Made by a program: the position numbers and the translations under genes. A DNA stretch of 64,000 nt, taken from assembly GCF_014490035.1 (NCBI RefSeq), contig NZ_CP061008.1, positions 186,001-250,000 on the forward strand. The letters are read 5' to 3'. Numbering within the stretch: position 1 is the first letter of the stretch; each line of letters opens with the position of its first letter. The notes beneath the pieces are model-generated. The model worked only from the letters and a program-made list of their open reading frames with translations. It was not told the DNA's origin and did not search any database. This stretch comes from Achromobacter xylosoxidans (GTDB lineage: Bacteria > Pseudomonadota > Gammaproteobacteria > Burkholderiales > Burkholderiaceae_B). Below, one piece after another: positions 34,628 to 53,774 of the stretch.

Positions 34628-34638
34628 TCCGCCGCGCG

Positions 34639-35127: not shown

Positions 35128-35279
35128 GATTAATTTCAAAAAAATGATCTTGAAGAAATATTATTTAATCACAATCATGTAAGGGAATTAACTTCCATTT
35201 TTATCAGTATAAAGAAATCAAATTTCTTGCGGGGACGAGCACAATGCGTCGGTACACGAACTTACCGGAGCACTCTCCT
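35128..35279. promoter_or_regulatory. AT-rich divergent region between lrp and glmS
   Basis: The stretch 35128-35225 is far more AT-rich than its surroundings (for example AAATATTATTTAATCAC) and should hold both promoters and Lrp sites. No exact pair can be assigned. The last 55 bases, with GGAG at 35266, are the glmS leader. Confidence 0.4.
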
Positions 35280-37112: not shown

Positions 37113-37137
37113 GGCCGGACAGTCGCAGCCGTATAGA

Positions 37138-37168
37138 GCAAAAGCCCACCCGCTCGGTGGGCTTTTTG
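37138..37168 (+). terminator. Strong terminator of glmS
   Basis: AAAGCCCACC (37141-37150) and GGTGGGCTTT (37156-37165), 5-base loop, then a T-run into TTTTTG. Confidence 0.92.
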
Positions 37169-37680
37169 CTTTTCGGGCGGCTCGTGTGCGAATACTTACT
37201 TGTGCTGCGGACGGGCGTCAGTCTTTGTTATTTCTGAATAATGACTGTAGCCAGGCTGTTTTTGAATATGACATTGCGCCGGCCATTAATAAATAACCCC
37301 GCGCCGGCATTATGTTTTTTCATTTTGGTTAAACCGGACCAAGAAAAACCCTTTTATATATTTGCTAACAAACTCAATGGCGGGTCATGTTGCGGTTTAT
37401 GTAATGAATGTAATTATTTGAGGGATTTCCCGGGGTTTATTGCGACGAATCCGACTTACTTGCACAGCAATAAAAATATTTAGAAAGAATTTCGCTGTTT
37501 GCTACCTATACGATTCGTTGGCTCGCCGCTTGGCACGTCTGATCAAGTATCGAGCTGTAAATATTCTTAAGCAATACGCCCGCCCGAACCGGGGCAAACA
37601 TATTCGATTCTGCATCGATCTCGTGCCCCCGGGTGTCAATTTCTAGTGTCTCCGACACGACGAAAACAGTGAGGTCCCCC
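37169..37680. other. AT-rich regulatory gap before the capsule locus
   Basis: Over 500 bases without a convincing gene, markedly AT-rich in 37210-37570. Short open frames exist (37241-37483, 37440-37646) but lack ribosome sites and family features. A copy of AATTATTTGAGGGATTT (37412-37428) exactly matches 9610-9626. TATATATTTG at about 37353 could be a -10 region. This is the expected place for the capsule promoter, and its composition suggests control by a nucleoid-type silencer. Confidence 0.6.
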
Positions 37681-38958
<1,278 letters not shown>

Positions 38959-38997
38959 GTTCAGGCTCACTATCGATCACTAGAGGAGAGCCTCCGA

Positions 38998-41478
38998 ATG
39001 GCTGCTTTTACCACCGCTCCGATTGGAACCTGCCGCATCCATACGCCGCTGCGCGATGCCGTGGGCCGCTACCCGATCAAGCTGCAACTCGGGCGCAACT
39101 ACGGTTTCGTGCACACCAGCGCCGAGGCGCTGCAGCAGGCGCGATTCATGTTTGGCCAGGGCGACATCCCTGCCGACGTCCAGCGCGTGATCTTCCGGCC
39201 TTCGAATGGCGAGCAGGCGCGCAAAGGCGCCCACAAGCCGGCTGACCTCTACGTGGTCGAACTGTCTTCGCGCAAGCTGCTGACCATAGACGGCTACCCG
39301 ATACAGTCCAACTACCTGGTGCGCTACTTCAGCGAGTTCTTCGCCGACCGCACGCGCACCCGGATGTTCTGGTCCATGGCCCACGCCGACCGTCTGGCCG
39401 AGCGCCGTGCGCTGCTGGACCAGGAGCCGGTCTTCAAGGCGCTCACGCCGGACGACCGCAATCTGCTCGCCCGTATCGTCAAGCGCGACCAGACGGATGA
39501 GGAGATCGAGCAGGAAATGAACCAGTTGGTCGATCTGCTGGGCCGCGACAAAGTGGTGTTTGTCACGCACGTCAATGCCATGACGCCGGACAACGCGCCC
39601 ATCGAGCAACGCCAGCAACTGATCGCCGCGGTGCTCGTCAGCGCGCAGCGCATCGGCGTGCCTTGCTACGACCCGACGCCGCTGATGAACAAGATCGGCC
39701 AGTCCGAGGCCATGGAAAATGGCGGATTGGACCTGACCCACTACACGCCGGCTTTCGCCGAGCGCCTGTGCGCAGAGTGGTTCAAGACCTACATGCGTCC
39801 GCGCCTGGATGCGTCGACGACGCAGCCCTCCGCGCCCAAGCTTTCCGCCGACGAAAGCGCCGATCGCATCGAGAAACTCTGGGATTCGGGCGAACTGCGC
39901 GAAGCCTCGCGCCGCGTGCGCGAGGTGCTGCGCCGCCATCCCGGCCTGCCCGACCACACGCTGCTGTTTGCGCGCATCCAGGAAGAACTGGGCGACTACG
40001 AAGGATCGTTGGCGCTCTTGGGCAGCGCCGACGGCGCGGTGGCGTCCGGCAGCAAGGCAGAGCAGATCCTGATGCGCAACCAGTTCAAGCTGGGACGCCA
40101 TGACGTGGCGTACTCGCTGGCTGCCGGCTTGCTGGGCGATGAGATCGAAACCCCCGAAATCGTGCGCATTGCGGCGATTTCCGCGGGCCAATTGGGTTAT
40201 GTGGACGAGACCCTGGGCAACTGGAAGCAGCTGTTCCGCATCTCTTCCCCGGAAGACGCGGTCGCGGTGGAAGCCGCCGACACCGTGCTCGCGCTGCTGC
40301 AGGCCAGCGGTGACATGGAATCCGCCATACGCTGGATCCACGAGGTCCGCGCGGCCATGCCTGCGTACGGGCGCGGCTTCGCCATGCTGTGGCGCGACCG
40401 GCTGCTGGCCGGCGATCGCGCCGGACTGCGCAACCTGGCGTCCGAATCGCCCGCGCTCAATGATGTCGACGCGCTGGAGCTGGTCAAGGAAGCTTCGTGG
40501 CGCGGCGGCATCATGGCCGCCGCCACGCTGGCGGTTTCGTGCAAGCTGGCAAGCAGCGAGCAGGAAGATATCGTCGCCTGGCTGAATTCGCAGTCGCAAG
40601 CCTGGGCCGAGGAAGGCAACCGCGCGCTGGAAGAAGGACGCCTGCGCGATGCCGCGGAGCGCATCTGCGCGCACCGCCTGCTGACTCCCGATGCGCTAGC
40701 CGGCGTGCGCGCCCAGCGCGCCTTCGAGCGCGCGATGCGCCTGGGCGTGCGGGCCGCACTGGTGGCGGGCAATCACAAGGAAGTCATCGACCTTACCGAC
40801 ATCGCGCTGGACAGCCAGATCGATTTCCCGGAGCTGCATGCCATGCGCGGCCGCGCGGCCGATGCGCTGGGCGACAAGAAGACCGCCATGCGGCACCTCG
40901 AGCAGGCTGCCGCCGGCGAGTCCGCCTCGTTCAGCACCCAGCTGCATTTTGCGCGGGTGGCCTTCCACGGCGGCTGGTATGGCGAGGCCATCGACGCCTA
41001 CAAGACCGTGCTCGACCATGCCGGCGCGGACCAGGGCGCCAAGGACGAAGCGCAGCGCCAGCTGGGCAGGCTTGGACCCCGCGCCATCCGCGGCGCGCGG
41101 GAGATTCTTTCCTCCGGCGATCACCAGGCGGCCTGGAATCTGCTGGAGCGCGTCGCGCAGTCCTGGCCCGGCATGTCGGAAGTCGACCATGAAAAGCGGC
41201 GCATCATCGCCGTGCTGTACGCCGAAGCGCGTGCGCTGGATTCGGCCAGCACGACCGAACGCCTGGCGTTGGGCGAGCGCATCCTGAAGCTGGTTCCGGA
41301 AGATCCCATCGGCTTGCGCCTGGCCGCCGTGGGCGCCATGCGCCTGCATCGCTTCGAACAGGCCCTGCCGTACTGGCGCAAGCTGCAGGAACGTTCCGAG
41401 AATCCGGCGCAGTTCGATCACTACATCGAACGCTGCCTCGTGTGGATCGAGAAGATCAACCGGAGGAAGGCAGCATGA
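38998..41478 (+). CDS. tviD: TviD-like Vi capsule biosynthesis protein (SGNH-like domain plus TPR region)
   Basis: 826 residues, very near the length of Salmonella TviD (831). The N-terminal ~280 residues look like an SGNH/GSCFA-type esterase fold: GTCR at residues 10-13 takes the place of the GSC motif, and DLTHY near residue 245 provides the D-x2-H pair. In Vi, O-acetylation depends on TviD, which fits. Residues ~290-820 are all-helical, with TPR-like repeats (DELREASRRVREVLRRHPGLPDHTLLFARIQEELGDYEGSLALL; AMRGRAADALGDKKTAMRHLEQAA). GAGGAG precedes the start, 39 bp after tviB. Identity is by length, order and layout; sequence similarity needs a search. Confidence 0.75.
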   Translation: MAAFTTAPIGTCRIHTPLRDAVGRYPIKLQLGRNYGFVHTSAEALQQARFMFGQGDIPADVQRVIFRPSNGEQARKGAHKPADLYVVELSSRKLLTIDGYPIQSNYLVRYFSEFFADRTRTRMFWSMAHADRLAERRALLDQEPVFKALTPDDRNLLARIVKRDQTDEEIEQEMNQLVDLLGRDKVVFVTHVNAMTPDNAPIEQRQQLIAAVLVSAQRIGVPCYDPTPLMNKIGQSEAMENGGLDLTHYTPAFAERLCAEWFKTYMRPRLDASTTQPSAPKLSADESADRIEKLWDSGELREASRRVREVLRRHPGLPDHTLLFARIQEELGDYEGSLALLGSADGAVASGSKAEQILMRNQFKLGRHDVAYSLAAGLLGDEIETPEIVRIAAISAGQLGYVDETLGNWKQLFRISSPEDAVAVEAADTVLALLQASGDMESAIRWIHEVRAAMPAYGRGFAMLWRDRLLAGDRAGLRNLASESPALNDVDALELVKEASWRGGIMAAATLAVSCKLASSEQEDIVAWLNSQSQAWAEEGNRALEEGRLRDAAERICAHRLLTPDALAGVRAQRAFERAMRLGVRAALVAGNHKEVIDLTDIALDSQIDFPELHAMRGRAADALGDKKTAMRHLEQAAAGESASFSTQLHFARVAFHGGWYGEAIDAYKTVLDHAGADQGAKDEAQRQLGRLGPRAIRGAREILSSGDHQAAWNLLERVAQSWPGMSEVDHEKRRIIAVLYAEARALDSASTTERLALGERILKLVPEDPIGLRLAAVGAMRLHRFEQALPYWRKLQERSENPAQFDHYIERCLVWIEKINRRKAA

Positions 41479-43529
41479 ATCCCCCATTGACTACCGAGCG
41501 AGCGGAGGCTGCATCCGATCTGCAAGCGGTGCAAGCCCGGTTGGAAGAGATCGTCACGGCGTCGGTGCGGGTTCAAGTCGCCCAGGAAAACCTGCCCCGC
41601 GCCCAGGAATTGGCGCGCGACCACATGGCCGATTCCAAGGTCCGCTTCCTGCTGCTCAGGCTGAAGGAGGCGGCGGGCCTGAACGAAGGCATGGCCGAGC
41701 AGTGGGCCACGCTGTTGCAGGAGTGCCCGGACGATTTCCTGATCGTGCGCTACTGCGCGACTCGGTTGGTGAAGGAACGCAAGATCGATGAGGCCTTGGC
41801 CTTGGTCGATCATCATCTTCCGCCCTCGACGCAGAATCCCAATCGCTTGTTCGCGCGGGCCAAGCTGCTGAGCGACATCCGTGCGCACGAGCAGTCCGAC
41901 GAACTCTTTCGCCGGCTGATTTCCGAGAACACCGACCGCAACATGCGCGTCGAGTTCGCCAAGCGCCTGCGCAAGCGCGGGTTGCTGGCCGACGCGTTCG
42001 ATGCGATCGCGCCCGTCATGAAGCACCTGACGCCCGGCAGCAAGGCGGCGGAGCTGGCCAACGACCTGGCCAGCGACTACGCCTTCTACCAACGCTTCGA
42101 ATCGGAAGAAGGGCTGGTGGGCAAGGATGTCAGGATCGTGTCGATGAAGCATGCGATCCTGCACTTCCGCGACCGCAAGATCGTGGATCAGTCGGCGGAG
42201 AAGCCGGTGTCGGTCGCGCTGGTGACGGGCAGCCTCGGGCCCGGCGGCGCCGAGCGCCAGCTGACGCGGCTTGCGGGCGAACTGACACGCCTGGCCGAGT
42301 GCCCCGAGCGCCGGCCGGCCGACGTGATCATGATGCCGAAGAAAGTCGAAGTCATGGTCAAGCAGCACACCGAGCCAGCGGGCTCCACCAAGAAGCAGGG
42401 GCTGGATTTCTTCCTGCCGGTGCTGGTGAAGGCACAGATCCCGGTCACGGAAATCAACAAGCTGCCAGCCGTTTCGGTGTCTCATCAATCCGTGCCCGAA
42501 GGCAGCCTGAGCCGTCTGCTGGAGCAGTTGCCGCCTCCGGTGCACTACGGCGTGACCCGGCTTACGCCTGTGCTGCGGGAGAACCCGTTCGACGTGGTGA
42601 GCCTGTGGCAGGACGGGACCTGCCTGTTCGGCGCGCTGGCCGCGCTGCTGGCCGGCGCTCCGACCATACATCTGGTCTTCCGCGGACTGCCGCCGAACAT
42701 CCGCAAGGACCGCTTCCGCGAGGAATATCCCGAGCTCTACCAGGCGCTGGCCCAGGTGCCGGGGGTGGTTTTCGTCAGCAACAGCTGCAAGGCCGCGGAA
42801 GCCTATTCGGAATGGCTGGGCATCCCGATCACGCGCTTTCACATCCTGTACAACGGCGTGCCCGATCTGTCGACGGACGCCTCGGCCGTGGATGAGGAAA
42901 AGTGGAAAGCCTTCCAGGAAAGCACGAACGATGCCACCGAGACGATAGGCGGCGTGTTCCGCCTGGAGCCGGACAAGCGGCCACAGCTATGGATCAAGCT
43001 GGCGGCGATGTACCTGAAGGACAGGCCGCAGGCGCGCTTCGTCATCGTCGGCGACGGACGCCTGCGCGAGAACATCGAGGCCTTGGCTGAAGAGCTGAGC
43101 GTGACGGACAGATTGTTGCTGGTCGGTCTTTCCAACCACGTGGGCTATTGGTATTCGCAAATGGATGCCAGCGTCCTGCTGTCGCGCTACGAAGGCTTGC
43201 CCAACGTGCTGATCGAAGCCCAGTTGGTGGGTGTGCCGGTGATCTCGACTCCCGCGGGCGGCGCCGGCGAGTGCTTTGTGGAGAACGAGACCGGCCACCT
43301 GCTCAGCTGCGTCGATCACCCGGACCTGCACGAGGCATGCGAGAAAGTCGCGTCCATGGTGGACCAGGTGCGCAGCAACGAGCAGCTGAGGGACCACAGC
43401 CGTCACCGGGCGCAGAAATTGTTCTCGCTCGATGCCATGCTGACCAAGTTCATGGGCCTGTGCATGCCCGTGGTGTCCGAGAACGACGAACGCATGGATA
43501 TCGAGCCCATGCGCCTGATGCAAGCCTGA
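41475..43529 (+). CDS. tviE: TviE-like glycosyltransferase
   Basis: 684 residues; ATG overlaps the tviD-like stop (ATGA) with AGGAAGG upstream. The N-terminal ~220 residues are helical and TPR-like (DDFLIVRYCATRLVKERKIDEALALVDHHLPP). A GT-B glycosyltransferase follows from SVALVTGSLGPGGAERQLTRLAGEL (residue ~232), with ITRFHILYNGVPD, GVFRLEPDKRPQLWIKLAAMY, ARFVIVGDGRLRENIEALAEEL, and the nucleotide-sugar motif SRYEGLPNVLIEAQLVGVPVISTPAGGAGECF (E-x7-E). TviE is the presumed Vi polymerase transferring GalNAcA; this version is about 100 residues longer at the N-terminus than the Salmonella protein. Confidence 0.82.
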   Translation: MNPPLTTERAEAASDLQAVQARLEEIVTASVRVQVAQENLPRAQELARDHMADSKVRFLLLRLKEAAGLNEGMAEQWATLLQECPDDFLIVRYCATRLVKERKIDEALALVDHHLPPSTQNPNRLFARAKLLSDIRAHEQSDELFRRLISENTDRNMRVEFAKRLRKRGLLADAFDAIAPVMKHLTPGSKAAELANDLASDYAFYQRFESEEGLVGKDVRIVSMKHAILHFRDRKIVDQSAEKPVSVALVTGSLGPGGAERQLTRLAGELTRLAECPERRPADVIMMPKKVEVMVKQHTEPAGSTKKQGLDFFLPVLVKAQIPVTEINKLPAVSVSHQSVPEGSLSRLLEQLPPPVHYGVTRLTPVLRENPFDVVSLWQDGTCLFGALAALLAGAPTIHLVFRGLPPNIRKDRFREEYPELYQALAQVPGVVFVSNSCKAAEAYSEWLGIPITRFHILYNGVPDLSTDASAVDEEKWKAFQESTNDATETIGGVFRLEPDKRPQLWIKLAAMYLKDRPQARFVIVGDGRLRENIEALAEELSVTDRLLLVGLSNHVGYWYSQMDASVLLSRYEGLPNVLIEAQLVGVPVISTPAGGAGECFVENETGHLLSCVDHPDLHEACEKVASMVDQVRSNEQLRDHSRHRAQKLFSLDAMLTKFMGLCMPVVSENDERMDIEPMRLMQA

Positions 43530-43570
43530 TTGACGTCCAACCGATCAAGCTGCGCAAACGAAAGGATCTT

Positions 43571-44725
43571 ATGCATATGTACGTCCCGGGTTCAGGGCTG
43601 CGGCGCAAAGCAGCCCTGACCATGGTGGTTCTTGCCACGCTGACTCTCGCGGGGTGCCAGCTGCCCCGTTCCGGCCCGATGCTGAGCGAAATGACGGGCG
43701 CGCACGATGACAAGGACGTCATCGTGATGCCCGTGTCGCGCGAACTGGTGCAGGCCAGCCGGGTGCCCGACGTGGCCGACTTTCCCGTGCGCTACCGCGA
43801 TCTCACGCAGGCCGGATTCGACCGCCTGGTTCCCGGTGACGGCATCAACGTGAAGGTATGGGAGCGCGGCGGGCTGGGCGTGTTCGCGGCGGATCCGTCC
43901 GGCGTGAGCGACCTGGGAAACCAGGAGATAGACCCGGCGGGGAATGTGAGCTTCCCAATTCTGGGCAAGTTCCATGCCGCCAACATGACCCTGGCGCAGT
44001 TGCATGACGCCGTTGTCGCGCGCCTGGCCAGGCTCGTCGTGGGCGCCGACGTCAGCGTGACGCGCGCCGCGGATGCGCGCGGCCAGATGGTGACGGTGCA
44101 GGGCAACCTGACCAAGCCCGGCATGTATCCCATCACCCAGACCTCGCAGCGCCTGAGCAGCGCGCTGGCCCAGGCCGCGCCGGTGCAGACGAACCCCGAG
44201 CAGCTCGTCATCAGCCTGCGCCGTGACAACCAGGTGGCGTCGGTGCGGCTGTCGGATATCTATCGCAACCAGAACAACGACATCCTGCTGCGCGCGGGCG
44301 ATGTCATCACCGCCTATGACTCGAAAGAGTACCTGACCGTGCTGGGCGCCGCCGGCACCCAGGGGCGCGTGGCCATCAGCAAGCGCAACTACAGCGTGCT
44401 GGATGCGCTGGCGGATTCCCGCGGCCTGGACGACAAGCTGGCGGATCCGCGTTCCGTGTTCCTGTTCACGCCCGCCAAGGCTGGCGCCGAGGGCAAGCCG
44501 GATCTGTTGCCGGTGGTCTACCAGTTCGATCTGACGCGTCCGGAGCAAGTGGCGCTGGCTCGAGAATTCACCGTGCAGGAAGGCCAGGCCATCTATATTT
44601 CGGATGCGCCGTTCACGCAGGTGCAGAAGGTGTTGTCCGCGTTCCGCGTCACGATGAGCGCCGGCTTCAGCGCCACGCGCGCCATTGACAGCGATTCGGG
44701 CGGCTCGTCCGGCATAAGCCAATAG
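43571..44725 (+). CDS. vexA: Wza/VexA-type outer membrane polysaccharide export lipoprotein
   Basis: 384 residues. A lipobox LAGC lies at the end of the signal sequence, giving an outer-membrane lipoprotein. The PES domain follows: LVPGDGINVKVWERGGL, EIDPAGNVSFPILGKFHAANMTLAQLHDAVVARL, then two SLBB domains (VTVQGNLTKPGMYPIT; LTVLGAAGTQGRVAISKRNYSVLDALA). Such proteins form the export channel for ABC-dependent capsules. AGGA precedes the ATG at 43571; ATG 43577 is a near alternative. It follows tviE by 41 bp. Confidence 0.9.
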   Translation: MHMYVPGSGLRRKAALTMVVLATLTLAGCQLPRSGPMLSEMTGAHDDKDVIVMPVSRELVQASRVPDVADFPVRYRDLTQAGFDRLVPGDGINVKVWERGGLGVFAADPSGVSDLGNQEIDPAGNVSFPILGKFHAANMTLAQLHDAVVARLARLVVGADVSVTRAADARGQMVTVQGNLTKPGMYPITQTSQRLSSALAQAAPVQTNPEQLVISLRRDNQVASVRLSDIYRNQNNDILLRAGDVITAYDSKEYLTVLGAAGTQGRVAISKRNYSVLDALADSRGLDDKLADPRSVFLFTPAKAGAEGKPDLLPVVYQFDLTRPEQVALAREFTVQEGQAIYISDAPFTQVQKVLSAFRVTMSAGFSATRAIDSDSGGSSGISQ

Positions 44726-44732
44726 CGTGTCG

Positions 44733-46073
44733 ATGAGTAACGAGGACAGGATCAAGGGCTGGCGTTCGCGCCGTAAGGAAAGTAGCTACGCAGTAGGATC
44801 CGGCGTCGCGGCCTGGCGCCTGGATCCGGCGGCATTGTTTGAAGCAAGGGCCACGCCGGCCGTCCTGCTCAAGCCTCTGGTCGCGCGCCTGCAGGGCGAG
44901 CCGCACGATTCCGTGGCTGCCCGGCGGGCGGTGTACGAGGCGGTGCAGGCGGAACTGGACGCGGAGATCGCGCGCAGCGACGTCGACGAGACGCTGGCGG
45001 ATTTTTCGCGCCGGCGCCTGCGCGTCATCGTGCGCCTGCTGGAAATGGATATCCGCGACGGCGTCGAGGTGTTCGCGCCCGGCTACATGCCAGCCAAACT
45101 GGTGGCCGAAGACGAGCGCCTGGCCGCGGCGCACGCGCGGCGCGTGGAGCGCCGGAAGCAGGACGAGGCGCGCGAAGCGCGCCGCCACGCCTCGCGCAAT
45201 GACATTGCGCTGGAGGTCGAAGTGCCGCAGGACGAGGCGGGCGATCTCGCGATATTGCGAGCCCGCTTGCAAGGCCTGCATGAGGGGCACGATCCGAGCC
45301 ATTCCGTGAAGGTCCGGCCGGTCGGGCGCACGCTGCTGGCGATGTTCATCTACCAGCTGCGCGTGATGCATGGCGAGAGCCGGATCGCCCTGGTATGGGC
45401 GCTGGTGGGCCCGGTCGTGCTGCTGACGCTGATTTCGTCGCTGTACATCCTGATGGGCACGCACTACATCATGGGCATGGACGTGCAGACGTTCTCGCTG
45501 TTGGGCGCGACGACCTGGATCATGTTCCGGCAGATCGCTTTCAGGAGCAGCACGGCCTACGTGTCAGCCCGCGGTCTGCTGAACTTCCAGGGCGTCACGC
45601 CCTTGATGTGCGCGCTGGTGCAGGCGTTCATCTATGTGTCGGTGTATCTGGTGGTGTTCCTGGTGCTGATCAGCGCCGGTCATGCGCTGGAACTCGTGAC
45701 CTTGCCGAAAAGCTGGTCCGGTTTCCTGCTTTTTGTCGTGCTGATGGGATGCTTCGGGGCCGCGTTGGGCGTGCTGTTCGGATCGATCGCGACCTACTGG
45801 CATTTCTTTCTCAGGCTCGCGCCGATCATTGAACGCTTTCTGCAGATCTTCGCGGCGGTGTTCTTCGTGTCGGAGCAGTTGCCGGAGAACCTGCGGCCGT
45901 GGATGCTGTGGCTGCCATTGGCGCATGGCATGCAGCTGCTGCGTTCCGCGTACTTCGAGGCCTACACCTCGCATGATGCGAGTCTCGGGTACTTCCTGAC
46001 CTCTTTGGTTTTCATGATGGTGCTTGCGTTGGCGGCGGAGCGTCTGGCCCGTCCCAATGTCCAGCCGATGTGA
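44733..46073 (+). CDS. vexB: KpsM/VexB-type capsule ABC permease with a long N-terminal cytoplasmic extension
   Basis: 446 residues, against ~260 for KpsM and VexB. Residues ~198-440 are the ABC-2 permease with six membrane helices (GRTLLAMFIYQLRVMHGESRIALVWALVGPVVLLTLISSL, ... FFVSEQLPENLRPWMLWLPLAHGMQLLRSAYFE is the family's conserved end). Residues 1-195 are soluble and charged, with a helical stretch rich in Arg, Glu and Ala (DERLAAAHARRVERRKQDEAREARRHAS) and no family I recognise. Start ATG 44733 or GTG 44727; no clear ribosome site. The partner ATPase is degenerate. Confidence 0.85.
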   Translation: MSNEDRIKGWRSRRKESSYAVGSGVAAWRLDPAALFEARATPAVLLKPLVARLQGEPHDSVAARRAVYEAVQAELDAEIARSDVDETLADFSRRRLRVIVRLLEMDIRDGVEVFAPGYMPAKLVAEDERLAAAHARRVERRKQDEAREARRHASRNDIALEVEVPQDEAGDLAILRARLQGLHEGHDPSHSVKVRPVGRTLLAMFIYQLRVMHGESRIALVWALVGPVVLLTLISSLYILMGTHYIMGMDVQTFSLLGATTWIMFRQIAFRSSTAYVSARGLLNFQGVTPLMCALVQAFIYVSVYLVVFLVLISAGHALELVTLPKSWSGFLLFVVLMGCFGAALGVLFGSIATYWHFFLRLAPIIERFLQIFAAVFFVSEQLPENLRPWMLWLPLAHGMQLLRSAYFEAYTSHDASLGYFLTSLVFMMVLALAAERLARPNVQPM

Positions 46074-46082
46074 GGGAAGAAG

Positions 46083-46799
46083 ATGATCCATCTCAATGGC
46101 GTCACTGACGAGCCCTATGCATTCGGCAGCAGGCAGGCGCTGCTTTCCAACGTGGATCTCGACATTCCGGTCGGGCGCTATGCGCTGCTGTCGCCCGCGC
46201 CGGAACTGCATCGCCAGATCGTCGATGTGCTGTGCGGCTTGCGGCCGCCGCGCCAGGGTTTCGTCAAGCACGATGGCAGCGTGTCCTGGGCGATAGGCCG
46301 CCAGGGCTTCATCCGCGGCAAGGCCAACGGCCTGAGCATGATCGACTTCGTCAGCGAGATGTACGAGATCGACGCGGATGCCACGCACGAACTGGTCGCC
46401 GACCTGGTCAGCGATCCCAGAACCCTGGCCAAGCCCATGGAGCATTGGCCGCTCTACGCGCGGCAGGAGTTTTCCTTCGCGCTGGCGCTGGCGCCGGCGT
46501 TCGATGTCTACGTGATCGAAGGGGCCATCCCTTTCGAGCCTTGCCGTTTCACCCGCCTGTGGCTGGCTCTGTTCGAAGAGCGCCTGGTCGGCCGGACACT
46601 CATTCTTTCCAGTTACCGCCAGAATCAGTTGGCGGACTATTGCTTCAAGGGTTTGATTTATGAACGAAGCGCACTCAGCATCGAAGACGACCTCGACCAG
46701 TGCATCCGCAGGTTTCCCCCGCGACGATCAAGGAGCGAATCCGGCACAGGCGACGACGTCCTCGGAGGCGGCTTCGATGAGGGCGGAATCGGCCTCTGA
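46083..46799 (+). CDS. vexC: KpsT/VexC-like ABC ATPase with all catalytic motifs degenerate
   Basis: 238 residues that align along their length with KpsT-type capsule ATPases (IHLNGVTDEPYAFGSRQALLSNVDLDIPVGRYALL; GSVSWAIGRQGFIRGKANGLSMIDFVSEMYEID; LAKPMEHW; FSFALALAPAFDVYVIEG; ADYCFKGLIYE). The functional residues are gone. Walker A (GxxGxGKS/T) is SPAPELHRQ (37-45). The signature (SSGM) is PLYA (123-126). Walker B and catalytic Glu (VDE) are IEG (145-147). The H-loop His is Tyr-178 in SSYR. The frame is otherwise clean and lies 10 bp after vexB. I infer a pseudo-ATPase, not a sequencing error, since no frameshift explains four lost motifs. Its last ~30 residues may be C-terminal overlap with the next gene. 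Confidence 0.8.
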   Translation: MIHLNGVTDEPYAFGSRQALLSNVDLDIPVGRYALLSPAPELHRQIVDVLCGLRPPRQGFVKHDGSVSWAIGRQGFIRGKANGLSMIDFVSEMYEIDADATHELVADLVSDPRTLAKPMEHWPLYARQEFSFALALAPAFDVYVIEGAIPFEPCRFTRLWLALFEERLVGRTLILSSYRQNQLADYCFKGLIYERSALSIEDDLDQCIRRFPPRRSRSESGTGDDVLGGGFDEGGIGL

Positions 46800-47952
46800 A
46801 GGTAGGTCCGAAATCGAACGCCGCCGCGGCGAGCGGCAATCGGCGCTGCGCGAGCGGCGCCGCCACCGCTGGATCAACACGCTCATCGTGCTGGCGCCGG
46901 TCGCGTGCGCCCTGGTCTACCTGCTGCTCTTCGCCACGCCGCGCTACGAGGCGGAGTCGCGCTTCTTCGTGCAGTCGGCCTCGGGCCAGCAAGGCGGCGG
47001 AGGGGCCGCGGCCAGCCTGCTGACCACGGGCAACGCGGGCGGCATGCTGGGCGGCTTCGTGGATGGTTGGGCGGTCGCCGACTTCCTCAAGTCGCGCGAC
47101 GCCATGCAGCAGCTGGACAAGAAGGTCGGCCTGCGCCAGTACCTGATCCGTGCGGGCCTGGATCCGGTGAATCACCTGGCCGAAGACTCCAGCGAGGACG
47201 ATCTCTTCCGCGCCTACCGGGCTTCCGTCAAGGTTTCGTTCAATGCGCTGGAGCAGATCGACGTGCTGCGCGTGAGCGCATTTTCCTCGGAGGACGCCGC
47301 GCTGCTGTCCAGGGCGCTGATCGAGCTGGCCGAGAGCTTCGTCAGCTCGATGAACGAGAAAGGCGTCGCCGACAAGCTGAAAGTGAGCGAGGAAGCGGTC
47401 AAGCTCGCGGAGCAGAAGGCCCTGGCCGCCCGGGAAACGCTGACCGCATGGCGAACCACGCACGGCAACATCGATCCCACGGCCACGGTGACGATGCTGC
47501 TGAACCTCTCCAGCCAGCTCGAAGGCGAGCTCAACACTGCGCAGATCAATCTCGACAAGATCCGCGCGTTGGGCAACAAGGACCATTTCATGCTGCGGCC
47601 CGCCGAGATGCAGGTGACTTCCCTGAAGAAGCGGATCGCGGCCGTTCGTCAGCGCCTGAGCGGCGCGGGCAACACGGAAGCGAAACAGCTCAAGTCCTAC
47701 GAGGCGCTGCGCAACGCCCAGGCTTTCGCGGACTCGAACCTGACCCTGGCGCAGCAGACCTACCAGCAGGCCATGACGGATACGCTGCGACTGCAGCGTT
47801 ACCTGTCCATCATTGCGCAGCCGGTGCCCACGGACCGCCCGAGCAGTCCGCGCACGGGGATCCTGCTGCTGCAGGCGCTGGCGCTGGGTTTTGTGCTGAT
47901 GTTCATCGCTCGCGTGGCGTGGGCGTTGTTGAGAGGATTGCGTCATGGTTGA
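46777..47952 (+). CDS. vexD: KpsE/VexD-type capsule export inner-membrane protein
   Basis: 391 residues from the ATG at 46777, which has GGAGG eight bases upstream and overlaps the vexC-like gene by 23 bases. An earlier ATG at 46660 is open (430 residues, nearer to VexD's 434) but would overlap by 140 bases. One membrane helix follows an Arg-rich start (RHRWINTLIVLAPVACALVYLLLFATPRYEAESRFFVQS), then a long periplasmic coiled-coil-like region (SEEAVKLAEQKALAARETL; QLEGELNTAQINLDKIRAL) and a C-terminal helix (ILLLQALALGFVLMFIARVAWALL). KpsE proteins are polysaccharide co-polymerase/adaptor proteins between the ABC exporter and the outer-membrane channel. Confidence 0.88.
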   Translation: MRAESASEGRSEIERRRGERQSALRERRRHRWINTLIVLAPVACALVYLLLFATPRYEAESRFFVQSASGQQGGGGAAASLLTTGNAGGMLGGFVDGWAVADFLKSRDAMQQLDKKVGLRQYLIRAGLDPVNHLAEDSSEDDLFRAYRASVKVSFNALEQIDVLRVSAFSSEDAALLSRALIELAESFVSSMNEKGVADKLKVSEEAVKLAEQKALAARETLTAWRTTHGNIDPTATVTMLLNLSSQLEGELNTAQINLDKIRALGNKDHFMLRPAEMQVTSLKKRIAAVRQRLSGAGNTEAKQLKSYEALRNAQAFADSNLTLAQQTYQQAMTDTLRLQRYLSIIAQPVPTDRPSSPRTGILLLQALALGFVLMFIARVAWALLRGLRHG

Positions 47953-49849
47953 TACGGCAATTGCGGATCGTCCCGCTGGTACTGAGGCTGCGGCACGCTT
48001 GCGTGACGTGATCAGGCAGATTCATGCCTCGCCCGAGCCGCTGAACGACATGTCCATGCTGAAACCGGCGCTGCGCGAGGCTGCGCAGGGCTGGCGCGAT
48101 GCCCGCCGCCTGCTGGTTTCGCCCTTGGTGCGGGAAGGCAAACTGGTTGCCGCGATCGCCGCGCTGGAGATCATGGTGGCGGTCTATCCTGCGCGCGCCG
48201 ACGAGCGCCGCCTGCTCGCCAGCCTGTTCGGGCGCACGGAGCAATGGGACCGCGCCATCGCCGAGGCGGACGCCGCCGCAGGCATCGAGCCCGGCGCGGC
48301 GGCGCTGCATGCGGCGCGCATCCAGTTGCGCGTGCAGGCCGGCCGCGTGGCCGAGGCTGCCGAGGTCGCGCGCGCGACCAGGAACCTGGCGGAAAACGAG
48401 CCTGGCGAAGCCTACCCCTGGCTGATGGCCTTCGTGCGCAATGGCGATGCGGCCGAGGCGGCAGGCATGGCCGCCGCCTTGGACCCGCGAGAGCTGCCCA
48501 ACGAGCGCGTGGCGACGATGGCCGTGCGCGCCCTGCTGGATGACGGCAGGGTGGCGGCCGCCATCGCCTTCGGCGACGCGGCCCTGGGCGCGGGCCACGA
48601 CTGCGCGGTCCTGCGTTCGTCCCTGGGTCTGGCGCATCTGCGGCGCGGCACCGAAGACGACCGCAAGGTACATGCGCTGGCGCACTTCGAGGCCGGTCTG
48701 AGCGCGGCGCCTGCGGATGTCAGGCTGTTGACGCTGCATGGCGAGACCCTGCTGCGCGCCGGGCGCTACAAGGAAGCCCTGACGCCGTTGAAGCAGGCCA
48801 TCGACCTGGCGCCGGATCTGGAGCAGACGCGGGCCTTCTATGCGCGCGCGCTGCGCTACACGCTGCAGTACGACGCGGCGGCCGACCAGATGATGCATTT
48901 GCTGGAGAAGTCGCCCGAAAAGCAGCTCTGGCAGCGTGCGGCCATCAGCGCGCTGTCGCAGGCGGGCCGCAAGCAGGAGGCCGAGACGCTCTTCGGGCAG
49001 TACGTGGCGCAACGCGGCCAGCGGCTGCCGGCGACCTTCCAGGAGGCCATGACGCAGCTGGAGGAACGGCTGCACACCGCACCGATCCCGCAGGCGCGCC
49101 TGGACTGGGCCTGGTCGATGCGCGGCGACACCAGTATCGATCGCGCGCAATGGGAGCGCCGTGCGCGCTGGGGCCATCTGGTGGACCACCTGCTGTTCGA
49201 CTGGCTCGAATGCCGCGAGGAAAGCGTCGAAGAGGCCATGCAGGTGTTGGGAGAGCTGGATACCGGCGAGCGCTTCTTCGCGCCGCTGCTGGCGGGCGGC
49301 AAGGGCGTGGTGGTCGCCACCGCGCACGTCGGCCCCATGTATGCCGGGCTGATGGCGCTGGAACTGGTGGGCATCCCGTCGCGCTGGCTGGCGACCGCGC
49401 CCAGCATCGCGCAGAGCAGCTACTCCGCGGCGCTGATCTCCACCGCCGACCAGACCGAGGCGCAGGTCGCCAAGGCCTGCATGCGCGCGTTGACGTCGGG
49501 CTACGTGCTCTGCCTGGCGATAGACGGCGCGGCCAATCCGGCGGCGCCTCGCACCACCTTCGAAGGGCAGGACGTGACTTACTCCGGCTTCGCGTCCCAC
49601 CTGGCGCATCGCATGGGCGTGCCCTCGGTGTTCTACGCGCCGCGCTGGGAGAACGGCCGCGTCGCCTACACGCTGGAGATGCTGCCCGCGGCCAAGCCTG
49701 GCGAGGACGCCGAGGCGTATTCCCTGCGCTGGCAGCAGGCCTATTTCGAACGGCTCAGGGAGCATCTGGCCGGTCCTCCGGAAAACCTGCGCCTGAGCGG
49801 CGGCATCTGGCGCCACGTCACGGCCGCGGACAAGTCCGCGCAGCAATAG
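47945..49849 (+). CDS. vexE: VexE-like TPR-acyltransferase for the capsule lipid end
   Basis: 634 residues, close to VexE's 659. The N-terminal ~330 residues are helical with TPR-like repeats (AAIAALEIMVAVYPARADERRLLASLFGRTEQWDRAIAEADAAAG; ...LLTLHGETLLRAGRYKEALTPLKQAIDLAPD). The C-terminal ~270 residues resemble the LpxL/HtrB acyltransferase fold: GGKGVVVATAHVGPMYAGLMALEL, and TTFEGQDVTYSGFASHLAHRMGVPSVFYA. The family's H-x4-D/E appears as H-VGPM-Y, so the acidic residue is not where expected. VexE is known to acylate the reducing end of Vi antigen. Start overlaps vexD by 8 bases. Confidence 0.82.
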   Translation: MVDTAIADRPAGTEAAARLRDVIRQIHASPEPLNDMSMLKPALREAAQGWRDARRLLVSPLVREGKLVAAIAALEIMVAVYPARADERRLLASLFGRTEQWDRAIAEADAAAGIEPGAAALHAARIQLRVQAGRVAEAAEVARATRNLAENEPGEAYPWLMAFVRNGDAAEAAGMAAALDPRELPNERVATMAVRALLDDGRVAAAIAFGDAALGAGHDCAVLRSSLGLAHLRRGTEDDRKVHALAHFEAGLSAAPADVRLLTLHGETLLRAGRYKEALTPLKQAIDLAPDLEQTRAFYARALRYTLQYDAAADQMMHLLEKSPEKQLWQRAAISALSQAGRKQEAETLFGQYVAQRGQRLPATFQEAMTQLEERLHTAPIPQARLDWAWSMRGDTSIDRAQWERRARWGHLVDHLLFDWLECREESVEEAMQVLGELDTGERFFAPLLAGGKGVVVATAHVGPMYAGLMALELVGIPSRWLATAPSIAQSSYSAALISTADQTEAQVAKACMRALTSGYVLCLAIDGAANPAAPRTTFEGQDVTYSGFASHLAHRMGVPSVFYAPRWENGRVAYTLEMLPAAKPGEDAEAYSLRWQQAYFERLREHLAGPPENLRLSGGIWRHVTAADKSAQQ

Positions 49850-49861
49850 GAGCGAGTGCCG

Positions 49862-51082
49862 ATGAAGGCTGCAATCAAAACCGCGGGCTGGCTGCTTGCC
49901 CTGGCCATGTCGTACGGCGGGACGGCCACCGCCGCTGAAACGTGCAAAAGCCCGGACGAGCATTGTCCGTCCGTCGCGGCGCTGCTGCAGCAGCGCGAGG
50001 GCTACGGCGCCCGGGCCACGGGCGGCCTGGGCGGCAAGTTCATCGACGTCACGTCCGATCAGGATTCGGGTCCCGGAACGCTGCGCGCCGCGTTGGCGCA
50101 GGCAAAGAAAGGACCTACCTGGATACGCTTCGCCTCCGACATGACCATCGTCCTGGATACGCAGCTGCGCGTGCCGTCCAACACGACGATAGACGGGCGC
50201 GGCAGGCGCGTCACCCTGATCGACGATGGCTTGGGCGTGTATGGCAGCAAGAACGTCATCCTCACGCACCTGACGATAGACGGACGCCTGTCGCGGCTTA
50301 CGCAGGCCGTGAACGTGGCCAACAACAGCCGTGATGTGTGGGTCGATCACATGGATCTGTCGCGGATGTCAGACCGGCTGCTGAACGTGAAGAACGGGTC
50401 GACCGACGTCACGATCTCATGGACCAAGTTCCACAATTCGAACAAGGTCATGTTGCTCAACAACATTACGTCGAAGAACCTTTACGCCAACTACGACCGC
50501 GACTCGATAGCGCGCGTGACGCTGCACCACAACTACTTCCTCAACACCGTGCAGCGCAATCCGCGCGGGCAGTTCGGCACCTTCCACCTGTTCAACAATC
50601 TGCTGGAAGATTGGGATTTCTATGGCATGAGTTTCAGCCTGGAGGCCAAGGCCCTGGTCGAAGGCAATATCTTCAAGAACTCCGCGCAGCGCAAATGCGT
50701 GGAGCCGGAGTTCTTCCCCACGGTGGAAGGCATCAACGTGAACTATTGCCACTACATTCCGGTCGCCGCCAAGCGCAGCGCGCTGGAGAATGGCGAATCC
50801 GACCGCGGCGCCTATGAGACGCGGAAGGACGAACACGGTTATACGCGCGATTACAAGGCCTTCCTGCGGCTGAAGGACAATCTGTATCTGGGCGACGCGA
50901 AGCCGGTGTTGCAGGACTACCGGCCCGAGGCTGCGCCGACGCCGCCGTATTGCTATGGCTATGAAAAGCCCACGGCGGAGCTGGCGGAGAAGATCCGCAA
51001 GTTCGCGGGGAATACGGGCGGGGACACGCCGTTGCCGGTGTCCAGGACCGGGTCGGATTGCGGGGGATCTCCAGGCCAGTAG
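49862..51082 (+). CDS. vexL: Secreted polysaccharide lyase of pectate-lyase-type beta-helix (VexL-like)
   Basis: 406 residues; signal peptide to ATAA-E. The rest is a right-handed beta-helix with the pectate lyase pattern: SGPGTLRAALAQ, RVPSNTTIDGRG, SKNVILTHLTIDG, VWVDHMDLSRMSDRLLNVKNGSTDVTISWTKFHNSNKVMLL, and RVTLHHNYFLNTVQRNPRGQFGTFHLFNNLLEDW (catalytic Arg region NPRG). AGGAG precedes the ATG, 12 bases after vexE. A periplasmic depolymerase of this kind (VexL) is described from Vi-antigen producers such as Achromobacter; it cuts the uronate polymer in the periplasm. Substrate here is inferred from location. Confidence 0.85.
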   Translation: MKAAIKTAGWLLALAMSYGGTATAAETCKSPDEHCPSVAALLQQREGYGARATGGLGGKFIDVTSDQDSGPGTLRAALAQAKKGPTWIRFASDMTIVLDTQLRVPSNTTIDGRGRRVTLIDDGLGVYGSKNVILTHLTIDGRLSRLTQAVNVANNSRDVWVDHMDLSRMSDRLLNVKNGSTDVTISWTKFHNSNKVMLLNNITSKNLYANYDRDSIARVTLHHNYFLNTVQRNPRGQFGTFHLFNNLLEDWDFYGMSFSLEAKALVEGNIFKNSAQRKCVEPEFFPTVEGINVNYCHYIPVAAKRSALENGESDRGAYETRKDEHGYTRDYKAFLRLKDNLYLGDAKPVLQDYRPEAAPTPPYCYGYEKPTAELAEKIRKFAGNTGGDTPLPVSRTGSDCGGSPGQ

Positions 51083-51140
51083 TCTCGCGGTTCGCAGAAG
51101 CGGAGCCGGACCATGCGGATTGAAGCTAGGTGCTGTTCGC

Positions 51141-51270
51141 GAAATACAGCCTATGATTTGTTTTTAGAGAATACAAATCATAGGCTGTGAAAAGCCACAA
51201 ACCACATTGTGTATTTCAGATTAACAGCCTAGACTTTGTATATCTGAAATACAGCTTGAGGTTTGTATTA
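51141..51270. promoter_or_regulatory. HipB operator array upstream of hipBA
   Basis: A dense set of repeats in an AT-rich 130-bp stretch. A perfect 16-bp inverted repeat, ACAGCCTATGATTTGT (51146-51161) and its complement (51173-51188), is separated by 11 bases. Related half-sites ACAGCCTAGACTTTGT (51224) and ACAGCTTGAGGTTTGT (51251) follow. A second inverted repeat, GTATTTCAGA / TCTGAAATAC (51211-51220, 51243-51252), lies between them. GAAATACAGC occurs twice (51141, 51246). The last half-site runs up to the hipB start codon. This is the usual multi-operator layout for HipB autorepression. Confidence 0.8.
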
Positions 51271-51527
51271 TGGATTTCACCGTACGCACCGCGACACAAT
51301 TACCGGCCTTGCTCCAGGGGTTTCGCAAAGAGGCCGGCTTGACTCAGGCGGCCACGGCCTTGCGCCTTGGGGTCACACAACAGACTTTGTCCGCCCTGGA
51401 ACGCAATGCCGACAAGGTCAGCGCAGACCGGCTGCTGCAGCTGTTGAGCATCCTGGGGGTCGAAATGGTCCTGCGCCAGCAAGGGGCGCAGCCGGGACCC
51501 GAAACAACATCCGAACCCAGCTGGTAA
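51270..51527 (+). CDS. hipB: HipB-like antitoxin (XRE helix-turn-helix)
   Basis: 85 residues. The helix-turn-helix LLQGFRKEAGLTQAATALRLGVTQQTLSALERNADKVSADRLLQLLSILGVEMVL matches HipB. It should bind the operator array directly upstream and hold HipA inactive. Its C-terminal tail QGAQPGPETTSEPSW ends in the Trp that HipB-type antitoxins often carry. hipA begins 4 bp downstream, so they are one operon. Confidence 0.9.
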   Translation: MDFTVRTATQLPALLQGFRKEAGLTQAATALRLGVTQQTLSALERNADKVSADRLLQLLSILGVEMVLRQQGAQPGPETTSEPSW

Positions 51528-51531
51528 AGCC

Positions 51532-52884
51532 ATGGGGCGACGTTCACATGCGCAGATCCTGGGCCTATGGATGAATGGCACCTATGTCGGAGAGTGGAGC
51601 AATCGACCCCACGCCGGCGAGGTCCTGCAGTACGACAAGGACTGGGTCGCCTCCGCGCCGGGCAGGCCATTGTCGCTGTCCCTGCCCTTCACGCCGGGCA
51701 ATGGCCCGCATCGTGGCGACGTGGTCCGCGCATACTTCGAAAACCTGCTGCCCGACAGCAAGGAAATCCGCGAACGGGTTGCGCGCCGGTTCCGGGCGGG
51801 ATCGACCGACGCGTTCGCCCTGCTTGCCGAGATCGGCCGTGATTGCGCCGGCGCCTTGCAGATCCTGCCTGCGGGAACAGCGCCTGCAGACGTGACGTCG
51901 GTGCAAGCCTCGCCCTTGAACGATGCCCAGGTGGCGCAGCTGTTGCGCAGCGTGCCGGCGCCGGCGCTTCTCGGCGGCCAGGCCATCGCCGAGGATGATT
52001 TCCGCATTTCCATCGCAGGTGCGCAAGAGAAGACCGCCTTGCTGCGGATGGACGGACAATGGTGTTTGCCCCAAGGCGCCACGCCGACGACTCACATCCT
52101 CAAGTTGCCATTGGGGCTGGTCGGCAATATGAAGTTCGATCTGAGCGAATCGGTGGAAAACGAATGGCTGTGCTCGGAGATCCTGGCTGCCTACGGCATG
52201 CCCGTGGCGCGCACGGAAGTACTGAGCTTCGAAGACATGAAGGTGCTCGCCGTTGAACGTTTCGACCGCCGCTGGCAGGACGGCGGAGACGGAGCCCGTG
52301 GTCTCATCCGCCTGCCGCAGGAAGACATGTGTCAGGCCACCGGCACCCCGCCGCACCTGAAGTACGAGGCGGATGGCGGACCCGGCATCGAGCGCATTAT
52401 GAGTCTGCTCGAAACCTCGCGCCATGCAGAGCATGACCGGCGGACATTTTTCCAGGCTCAGGTCCTGTTCTGGATGCTATGCGCAACGGACGGCCACGCG
52501 AAGAACTTCAGCCTGTTCTTGCGGCCTGGCGGGGCATATGAACTTACCCCGCTATACGACGTGCTGTCCGCTTATCCGATCCTGGGCGAAGGGCCAGGCA
52601 AACTGTCGCCTGTCCGCGCGAAGATGGCGATGGCCGTGCGCTCGAAGAACCCACACTGGCGCATGCGCGACATCCAGCGCCGCCACTGGCTGACGGCGGG
52701 CGCGCGACATGGCGTCGTGACGCCGGACGGCCAGGGAGTCCAGTTCGTCGTGGACGATCTGATCGCGCGCACGCCAGAGGCTGTGCGCATGGTCCGCGCC
52801 AGATTGCCGCCGGGATTTCCGCAGGCGGTAGCGGACGGCATACTGGGCGGCTTGCAGGCGGCGGCGGACAGGCTCGCCACGTAG
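51532..52884 (+). CDS. hipA: HipA-like serine/threonine kinase toxin
   Basis: A 450-residue HipA, which inactivates glutamyl-tRNA synthetase by phosphorylation and slows growth. N-terminal domain: LGLWMNGTYVGEWS..LSLSLPFTPG, then LPDSKEIRERVARRF. The kinase parts are present: the P-loop-like SIAGAQEKTALLR (near residue 160, with the autophosphorylation Ser position), AVERFDRRW, the catalytic ATDGHAKNFSLFL (near 318) and TPLYDVLSAYP (near 338). All essential residues seem intact. It ends 30 bp before the convergent AraC gene. Frame length is normal. Confidence 0.93.
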   Translation: MGRRSHAQILGLWMNGTYVGEWSNRPHAGEVLQYDKDWVASAPGRPLSLSLPFTPGNGPHRGDVVRAYFENLLPDSKEIRERVARRFRAGSTDAFALLAEIGRDCAGALQILPAGTAPADVTSVQASPLNDAQVAQLLRSVPAPALLGGQAIAEDDFRISIAGAQEKTALLRMDGQWCLPQGATPTTHILKLPLGLVGNMKFDLSESVENEWLCSEILAAYGMPVARTEVLSFEDMKVLAVERFDRRWQDGGDGARGLIRLPQEDMCQATGTPPHLKYEADGGPGIERIMSLLETSRHAEHDRRTFFQAQVLFWMLCATDGHAKNFSLFLRPGGAYELTPLYDVLSAYPILGEGPGKLSPVRAKMAMAVRSKNPHWRMRDIQRRHWLTAGARHGVVTPDGQGVQFVVDDLIARTPEAVRMVRARLPPGFPQAVADGILGGLQAAADRLAT

Positions 52885-52914
52885 CTTTGGCGCGTGCGTA
52901 GCGGCGACTGCAAT

Positions 52915-53682
52915 TCATCGCTCGTTGAGTACATACCGCCCCGGCGTCTCCCCCGTCATCTGCCGGAAGTACGCGATAAACGCGCTGTCGCTGGCAAAGC
53001 CCAGATCGAACGCCACCGCGGTCACGCTCTGGCCCGCAGCCAGCAGATCCACGGCGCGCAGCAGGCGCCAGAGCTGCCGCCAGGCCTGATAGCTCATGCC
53101 GGTTTCGCGTTGGAAGATCCGGGTGATGGTGCGCGCGCTCGCGCCGACACGTTGCGATAGCGCATCCAGTTCGGGCGGCAGTTCCTCCAGGTTCAGGCCG
53201 GCCAGGCGGCGATCCGTGGGCACGGGCAGCAGCATGGGCTCCTGTCTTGCCGCGCGCAATTCGTCCATGCACACGGCCAGCAGGTTGCACGGCGCGCCCT
53301 GGGACCAGTCGGCGTCAAAGGGTTCCAGGCTGATGCGCTCGAACACCTCGCGCAATAGCGGGGTCATCGAAAGTATGGCCGCGGCGGCCGCGGGCGCCGC
53401 GATACGCGCGGTGTCCAGATAGATCGAGCGGTACTCGACTTCGCCGCGGATCATGACGCGGTGCTCGGTTCCAGGCGGTATCCATGCCGCGCGGATCGGA
53501 GGCAGTACCGCGATCAACCCCGGCATTGCGAGGCGGATGGAACCCGCGTGAGCAAAGAGCAATTGGCCCCGGCCATGGCTATGCAGGCCGGAATCGTGCC
53601 GTATCAGGCGCGATGCGATGCCCGTCACCGGCTGGGCCATGGTGTCGGGGTTGAACGCGTCGGTGGGTGCGAGCCTGGCCAT
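52915..53682 (-). CDS. AraC-family transcriptional regulator
   Basis: 255 residues with an N-terminal cupin sensor (HDSGLHSHGRGQLLFAHAGSIRLAMPGLIAVLPPIRAAWIPPGTEHRV) and a C-terminal double helix-turn-helix (LSQRVGASARTITRIFQRETGMSYQAWRQLWRLLRAVDLLAAGQSVTAVAFDLGFASDSAFIAYFRQMTGETPGRY). The cupin and start are like NimR/YeaM. Divergent from a Bcr-type MFS pump 92 bp away, an arrangement also seen for nimR-nimT in E. coli; it likely senses that pump's substrate. Confidence 0.92.
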   Translation of the reverse strand: MARLAPTDAFNPDTMAQPVTGIASRLIRHDSGLHSHGRGQLLFAHAGSIRLAMPGLIAVLPPIRAAWIPPGTEHRVMIRGEVEYRSIYLDTARIAAPAAAAAILSMTPLLREVFERISLEPFDADWSQGAPCNLLAVCMDELRAARQEPMLLPVPTDRRLAGLNLEELPPELDALSQRVGASARTITRIFQRETGMSYQAWRQLWRLLRAVDLLAAGQSVTAVAFDLGFASDSAFIAYFRQMTGETPGRYVLNER

Positions 53683-53774
53683 TTGTCCGAGTTCCGATGT
53701 TTTTTGTCTTCCTGGCTACAACGGCGAAGGCGACGGCCGGCTAAAAAACGGACTCTCCGTTTACCGATACCGCC

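Follow-up and report, generated by a model that had tools for sequence, protein, structure and literature searches.

The systems closest to the one described here are the ATP-binding cassette (ABC) exporters of bacterial capsules. In StKpsT, the ATPase of ABC-dependent capsule export with solved structures (8tsh, 8tsi), the E151Q change of the catalytic Glu is reported to abolish secretion (PMC11041684), so an exporter of the ordinary design does not tolerate loss of the motor alone. VexC of the Salmonella viaB operon is described as an ATP-binding motor, and in E. coli carrying the S. Typhi genes, disrupting vexB, vexC or vexD is reported to have left the Vi polysaccharide in the cytoplasm and lowered its amount (PMC3448643). 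Degenerate motifs also occur in working transporters, as described for the heterodimeric ABC exporter MsRv1273c/72c (PMC12038006), but there one impaired site stands beside a working one. We analysed a stretch of 64,000 nucleotides from Achromobacter xylosoxidans (contig NZ_CP061008.1, positions 186,001 to 250,000 of the forward strand; hereafter the window), part of a single-contig genome of 6.76 Mb. It carries a Vi-type capsule operon in which vexC (46083..46799) encodes a KpsT homologue without catalytic motifs; a homodimer of this VexC would have no working site, and the operon has no recognised canonical partner for it. With a probability of roughly 0.8, we consider that the protein belongs to an ancient, maintained pseudo-ATPase family derived from KpsT/VexC, in which it would act as a structural clamp or docking subunit while the energy for export comes from elsewhere. 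At the same level of confidence, the ABC capsule exporter of a whole clade would contain a pseudo-ATPase that is coupled to a new region of the permease.

VexC of the window is a KpsT homologue with replaced motifs

The vexC frame is open from the ATG at 46083 to the stop codon at 46797-46799 and encodes 238 residues. An initial annotation, made from the nucleotide sequence, had proposed that the KpsT pattern runs throughout the protein, and this was borne out. With a profile of the VexC family, residues 1-214 aligned to residues 1-218 of StKpsT (E 2e-24), and profile-profile comparison with intact KpsT gave a probability of 99.8% over 217 columns; homology to KpsT/VexC extends over the whole nucleotide-binding domain. 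As a lone phmmer query, the window VexC found a KpsT-like match over residues 46-211 (E 6e-13). Its length and motif order are those of StKpsT, as is its gene place, between a kpsM-like and a kpsE-like gene of a capsule operon. A Pfam scan of the window VexC returned no family at E<=1, ABC_tran (PF00005) included; as a control, ABC_tran matched two intact KpsTs of the same genus (E 5e-15 and 1e-15). The Salmonella protein was compared by its description and through the VexC model NF011724, which does not list the window VexC at E<=1. This model scores two intact KpsTs at 2e-26 and 4e-22 and is the best or only match for three degenerate relatives (E 6e-5, 2e-4 and 7e-3). The gene and its motif positions, the latter placed by alignment, are as follows.

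46083..46799, + strand, vexC-like pseudo-KpsT of 238 residues, an ABC nucleotide-binding-domain homologue without catalytic motifs (homology and motif alignment)
46191..46217, + strand, Walker A position, SPAPELHRQ (family motif SxxPExHR)
46446..46469, + strand, ABC signature position, WPLYARQE (family motif EHWPxxxRQE, with exceptions)
46506..46541, + strand, position of Walker B, catalytic Glu and D-loop, VYVIEGAIPFEP
46602..46622, + strand, H-loop position, ILSSYRQ (Tyr for His)

Alignment confirmed every motif reading of the initial annotation, namely SPAPELHRQ at Walker A, PLYA at the signature, IEG at Walker B and the catalytic Glu, and Tyr for the H-loop His, and added the loss of the D-loop, where PFEP stands in place of VGD. 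In comparison with StKpsT, the window protein therefore lacks Walker A (GxxGxGK[ST]), a signature of the SSGM type, the catalytic Glu, the D-loop and the H-loop His. The Walker B and catalytic Glu position reads VYVIEG (family motif YVIEGxxPFE), with Gly in the column of StKpsT E151, and the SSYRQ found at the H-loop is itself a family motif. Pseudo-VexC would thus keep the length and overall sequence pattern of KpsT and be unable to form a canonical ATP site. The earlier view that this subunit alone cannot power the exporter, and that another ATPase or power source is needed, is supported; we infer that the protein does not turn over ATP.

Motif residues were counted in one alignment of 74 distinct degenerate relatives and 10 intact or mostly intact KpsTs. 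Not one of the 74 relatives keeps the Walker A glycines, catalytic Glu, signature SG or H-loop His; 73 have lost the Walker A Lys and 65 the Walker B Asp. The replacements are themselves uniform. The Walker A Lys is changed to His in 72/74 and the following Ser/Thr to Arg in 73/74, while the changes from catalytic Glu to Gly, from D-loop Gly to Glu and from H-loop His to Tyr are each found in 72/74. A single residue is fixed in 65-74 of the 74 relatives at 11 of the 15 motif sites, one of which is the Arg after the signature that is common to intact KpsT. In one genome (G110), EDWP replaces EHWP.

The degenerate form is shared by a clade and is under purifying selection

The initial annotation had allowed for a single-strain anomaly, or for orthologues with normal motifs in the same position, and neither was found. 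Orthologues are present in 38 of the 43 genus genomes, always in an open frame with no internal stop, and the 37 that were read (all but that of G031) are degenerate. At a looser limit, all 43 genomes gave a KpsT-like match; the additional matches are different KpsT-like proteins, and those that were aligned have intact Walker A and B. In the family, 62 of 268 genomes matched at E<=1e-25, among them G221 (E 1.5e-26), which has an intact KpsT and so is not counted as carrying the degenerate type. Outside the genus, 23 genomes of the family have an orthologue, and all were read and are degenerate; the family total is 61 genomes with an orthologue, 60 read and 60/60 degenerate.

A scan of genome contigs recovered 48 loci from Achromobacter, Bordetella, Parapusillimonas, Castellaniella, Eoetvoesiella, Schauerella, Corticimicrobacter, Caballeronia, Paraburkholderia, Burkholderia and one metagenome-assembled genome of Hyphomicrobiales. 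The closest named relatives of VexC are in Achromobacter aegrifaciens and A. xylosoxidans (99 and 98% identical), and plasmid copies occur in Caballeronia (about 63% identical) and Mesorhizobium (40%), two of each having been read. When 350 genomes drawn evenly from the class were searched at E<=1e-24, there were four matches, of which the window's alone is degenerate and the other three have intact motifs; the degenerate family is therefore local rather than widespread. NF011724 gave no match at E<=1e-45 in 398 genomes of the phylum, where the controls were also without a match, and the VexE model NF011721 gave three matches in 399 genomes of the order, drawn from a larger group. KpsT of B. 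pertussis is reported to be 40% identical to E. coli KpsT (PMC4264864), and Bordetella accordingly seems to have the ordinary type. Two pseudo-VexC loci each are present in G021 (the second, L034, at G021:C1:8500-28000) and in Caballeronia pedi (L151/L155), all four of them degenerate; the VexC of L034 shares about 63% identity with that of the window. A literature search returned no mention of motif loss in VexC; the comparative work on the Vi machinery, foremost Wear et al. 2022, lay outside that search.

Selection was measured as the median pairwise ratio of nonsynonymous to synonymous substitution rates (dN/dS, Nei-Gojobori) over 30 sequences, the window and 29 chosen loci. VexC gave a value of 0.136 (0.118 for residues 1-190), as low as those of its neighbours (TviB 0.088, TviD 0.163, TviE 0.154, VexA 0.137, VexB 0.151, VexD 0.158 and VexE 0.197). 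The ratio fell to 0.026 over the former signature (residues 118-131; 289 of 435 pairs usable), to 0.036 over the former Walker B and D-loop (residues 140-156; 416/435 pairs) and to 0.096 over the H-loop (375/435 pairs), so that constraint is stronger in these three replaced stretches than over the whole gene, but not in the fourth, the P-loop. A tree was built from 14 intact proteins and 21 of the 74 degenerate ones. Its degenerate members form one side of a branch with support of 100/100 that is present in all 200 bootstrap trees. The tree program warned that L053 and L164, and likewise the two groups, are joined by long branches and that such joins may be false. The pseudo-VexC family is maintained under purifying selection, and its lost motifs have been replaced by conserved new ones.

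An N-terminal extension of VexB accompanies pseudo-VexC

Besides the motif losses in VexC, the system differs from that of StKpsT in its partner permease, which has an extra N-terminal region.

44727..46073, + strand, vexB/kpsM-like permease of 448 residues, with the KpsM domain from about residue 194-204 (residues 194-443 align with StKpsM, E 3e-13)
44727..45335, + strand, Arg-rich N-terminal extension of VexB (about residues 1-195/203)

The first ~195 residues of VexB have no match beyond chance level in Pfam, NCBIfam or the PDB. Of the 76 rows with a pseudo-VexC, 74 show an extension-like stretch (one of them is the window in second copy), and in the remaining two the upstream DNA amounts to just 434 and 58 bases. 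The extension is absent from all 24 rows in which the ABC ATPase is intact or canonical, 16 of which have a KpsM-like match. A search for the extension in 72,556 plasmids found three Caballeronia VexBs only; it missed the extension that alignment shows in the Mesorhizobium VexB, so distant copies may escape such a search. When 24 VexBs were aligned, the extension had 32 invariant residues, and Arg accounts for 13 of them, against 29 Arg among all 203 residues. This enrichment has a hypergeometric P of 4e-5 that ignores relatedness, and the net charge of the extension lies between -2 and +11. The extension may be a change that compensates for loss of the motor. In one locus (L153, Candidatus Burkholderia verschuerenii), the best VexB match begins at residue 198 though the locus has an extension-like stretch, and here the extension may be out of frame.

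Organization of the operon

The operon spans 37.6 to 51.1 kb of the window and is of the Vi-antigen (viaB) type, with homologues of tviB, tviD, tviE and vexA-vexE together and a pectate-lyase-like gene at its end. It follows the same operon logic as viaB of Salmonella. Its other members are listed below.

37633..38958, + strand, tviB-like UDP-N-acetylhexosamine (UDP-HexNAc) C6 dehydrogenase (NCBIfam match)
38998..41478, + strand, tviD-like protein with TPR repeats (Pfam, NCBIfam)
41442..43529, + strand, tviE-like Vi polymerase of the GT4 family (NF011726, 999.5 bits against a cut-off of 733)
43571..44725, + strand, vexA-like outer-membrane polysaccharide export protein (Pfam, NCBIfam)
46660..47952, + strand, vexD/kpsE-like co-polymerase of 430 residues, start uncertain (TIGR01010, E 1.9e-61 over residues 74-425, below cut-off)
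47945..49849, + strand, vexE-like acyltransferase of 634 residues (NCBIfam; His461/Asp527)
49856..51082, + strand, pectate-lyase-like protein, candidate Vi depolymerase of the VexL kind (Pfam match)

TviE alone passed its curated NCBIfam cut-off, and the other members, apart from the unlisted VexC, score under those of their Vi models. We take the pectate-lyase-like protein as a candidate VexL, in part on the description in PMC9597891. Nine bases separate the vexB stop codon from the vexC start. If vexD starts at 46660, which is uncertain, it overlaps vexC by 140 bases (46660-46799). The synonymous rate (dS) in the vexC tail is 0.43 against 0.62, lower as double coding predicts, but the annotation of one Caballeronia plasmid places the vexD start downstream of vexC. 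In a single-contig genome (G038, locus L039, from 9042), vexC and vexD form one open frame of 622 codons, which joins pseudo-VexC to the VexD N-terminus and is either a true fusion or a base error. No C4 epimerase TviC was recognised among the operon proteins (window 37000-51600); the best homologue of the Mesorhizobium epimerase in the window's genome lies outside the operon (32% identity, E 1e-30). A promoter scan was no richer than in shuffled sequences, and Rfam at the gathering score gave no match in window 34000-54000. Downstream of the lyase gene lies a HipA-type kinase gene (Couple_hipA, HipA_C; window 51532-52884).

A different Vi-like locus and the occurrence of VexE

The five genus genomes without the pseudo-VexC locus (G006, G007, G023, G024 and G039) carry another kind of Vi-like locus, which encodes TviB- and TviE-like proteins and has a KpsT where VexC would stand. 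Unlike the window VexC, this KpsT has intact Walker A and B, yet its H-loop His and signature SG are lost, and the accompanying VexB is without the extension. The KpsTs of L036, L037, L044, L045 and L046 (near 9.1-9.8 kb) have YANSMR as signature and SSVTTS, with no His, at the H-loop. Judged by its sequence, the KpsT of the five-genome locus is a partly degenerate motor, perhaps in an intermediate state. None of the five genomes gave a VexE match at E<=1e-30; in the genus, VexE and pseudo-VexC occur in exactly the same 38 of 43 genomes.

Achromobacter denitrificans, the source of the VexE that has been studied, is called a Vi antigen producer, and the spacing of 66 residues between His461 and Asp527 of the window VexE is the same as that between H466 and D532 of its VexE, as these are given in PMC9597891. 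Because VexE occurs only with pseudo-VexC in the 43 genus genomes, A. denitrificans most likely carries the pseudo-VexC type. In a transposon screen of A. xylosoxidans GN050, putative Vi capsule genes are described among the most-hit loci affecting macrophage cytotoxicity (PMC9430717), which suggests that the Vi locus is active in this species.

Search for another motor

The profile of intact KpsT was searched against each genome, and the best 70 candidates were scored. The initial annotation had suggested looking for a second KpsT elsewhere in the genome. In the window's genome there was no such match: with the window VexC as query, or with the profile and the best 70 of 280 candidates, nothing was found at E<=1e-20 except two other ATPases, a Wzt (2e-47, with a Wzt_C domain) that adjoins an ABC-2 permease and a more distant ABC ATPase (4e-21) that adjoins another. 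Across the 38 genus genomes with pseudo-VexC, another KpsT-like ATPase is present at E<=1e-60 in 15 and absent, among the best 70 candidates of each, in 23. Six genomes were searched again more loosely (best 150 of 250-295 candidates). In G010 and G011, the latter a single contig, pseudo-VexC itself was the top match to the profile (9e-18 and 2e-17), and in G020 it was second-best; in G001, G016 and G041 the best match was a different ABC protein, encoded in a long open frame (7e-21 to 3e-20), and pseudo-VexC came second. From these searches, a motor of the KpsT or Wzt type is not generally available, though one is present in many strains. A Pfam scan of nine operon proteins of the window found no ATPase; the flanking genes were not searched systematically.

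Energy source and alternative explanations

In the explanation that we favour, bacteria with pseudo-VexC probably power capsule export by some other route than this subunit. We infer that pseudo-VexC sits on the extended VexB as a structural clamp or docking platform; there it would hold the VexB-VexD export complex together and join it to the TviD-TviE polymerase. TviD is described as recruiting TviE, and nascent Vi as being protected through synthesis and export (PMC9597891). Together with the phenotypes of vexB, vexC and vexD disruption, this would allow chain growth to push the chain outwards. Our tentative preference, held at somewhat less than even confidence, is that growth of the polyanionic chain by TviE and the inside-negative membrane potential drive export, the potential favouring, as we would expect, outward movement of a polyanion. 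A literature search on the proton-motive force returned nothing useful. The boldest form of this scheme is an ATP-independent translocon in which the dead nucleotide-binding domain serves as a clamp, the Arg-rich region of VexB grips either the polyanionic chain or the polymerase, and the polymer is moved by its own growth together with the membrane potential; taken as a whole, it is conceivable and rather doubtful.

The main rival on the energy source is a borrowed motor, in which VexB is driven by an intact ABC ATPase from another locus and pseudo-VexC is an adaptor or regulator, for which sugar importers that share one ATPase provide a precedent. Candidates are plentiful, with 157-305 loose first-look ABC ATPases per genome, the KpsT-like ATPases of the 15 genomes and the Wzt of the window's genome. 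However, both nearest candidates in the latter adjoin ABC-2 permeases of their own, 23 genomes are without such a KpsT within the limits given above, and in G010, G011 and G020 pseudo-VexC is itself the first or second match to the KpsT profile; nor did the operon proteins scanned yield an ATPase. ABC dimers are arranged head-to-tail, each site combining Walker A of one subunit with the signature of the other, and VexC has lost both, so pairing it with a normal ATPase would still leave no canonical site. We regard a borrowed motor as unlikely. Pseudo-VexC might instead turn over nucleotide at a non-canonical site, for example one formed by the HR pair of the P-loop and the Walker B acid, given the near-constant His and Arg at Lys-Ser and the acid (Glu in 65, Asp in 9 of 74) at the Walker B Asp. 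This is improbable, since the P-loop glycines, catalytic Glu, signature and H-loop His are lost together, whereas E151Q alone stops secretion by StKpsT.

That VexB-VexC-VexD is a scaffold or sensor and not an exporter, the polymer leaving otherwise or staying inside, is to our mind just as improbable. The VexB extension, without a known relative, could mark a new role, but VexA, VexD, VexE and the polymerase adjoin in most of the loci examined and are under purifying selection, and A. denitrificans is described as a Vi producer (PMC9597891). Decay or sequencing error would fit the motif loss taken alone. We rejected it as having next to no probability, with no stop in the 38 genus orthologues or the other loci listed, a dN/dS of 0.136 and conserved replaced motifs; the doubt about simple decay voiced in the initial annotation was justified.

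Several observations weigh against the reading of VexC as a maintained pseudo-ATPase supplied with energy from elsewhere. The Walker B Asp is kept in 9/74 relatives, the D-loop Asp in 3/74 and a Lys in the P-loop in 1/74 (Mesorhizobium), and the Arg after the signature is kept in 74/74. The former P-loop, with a dN/dS of 0.175 (397/435 pairs), is less constrained than vexC as a whole. Another KpsT-like ATPase is at hand in the 15 genomes mentioned above, and the case that the pseudo-VexC type exports Vi would be drawn from the co-occurrence of VexE. The AlphaFold2 model of VexC is poor (mean predicted local distance difference test score, pLDDT, 58.9; predicted template modelling score, pTM, 0.40; the N-terminal half alone fair) and was not used for the argument.

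Implications

ABC exporters are defined by ATP hydrolysis, and a clade in which the ATP site has been erased and the machine kept is a natural experiment. With the pseudo-VexC clade it can be tested directly whether a polysaccharide can be exported by chain growth, by membrane potential or by means of a borrowed ATPase. The VexB extension is a new protein region to study, and the clade also bears on the production of Vi-type glycoconjugates.
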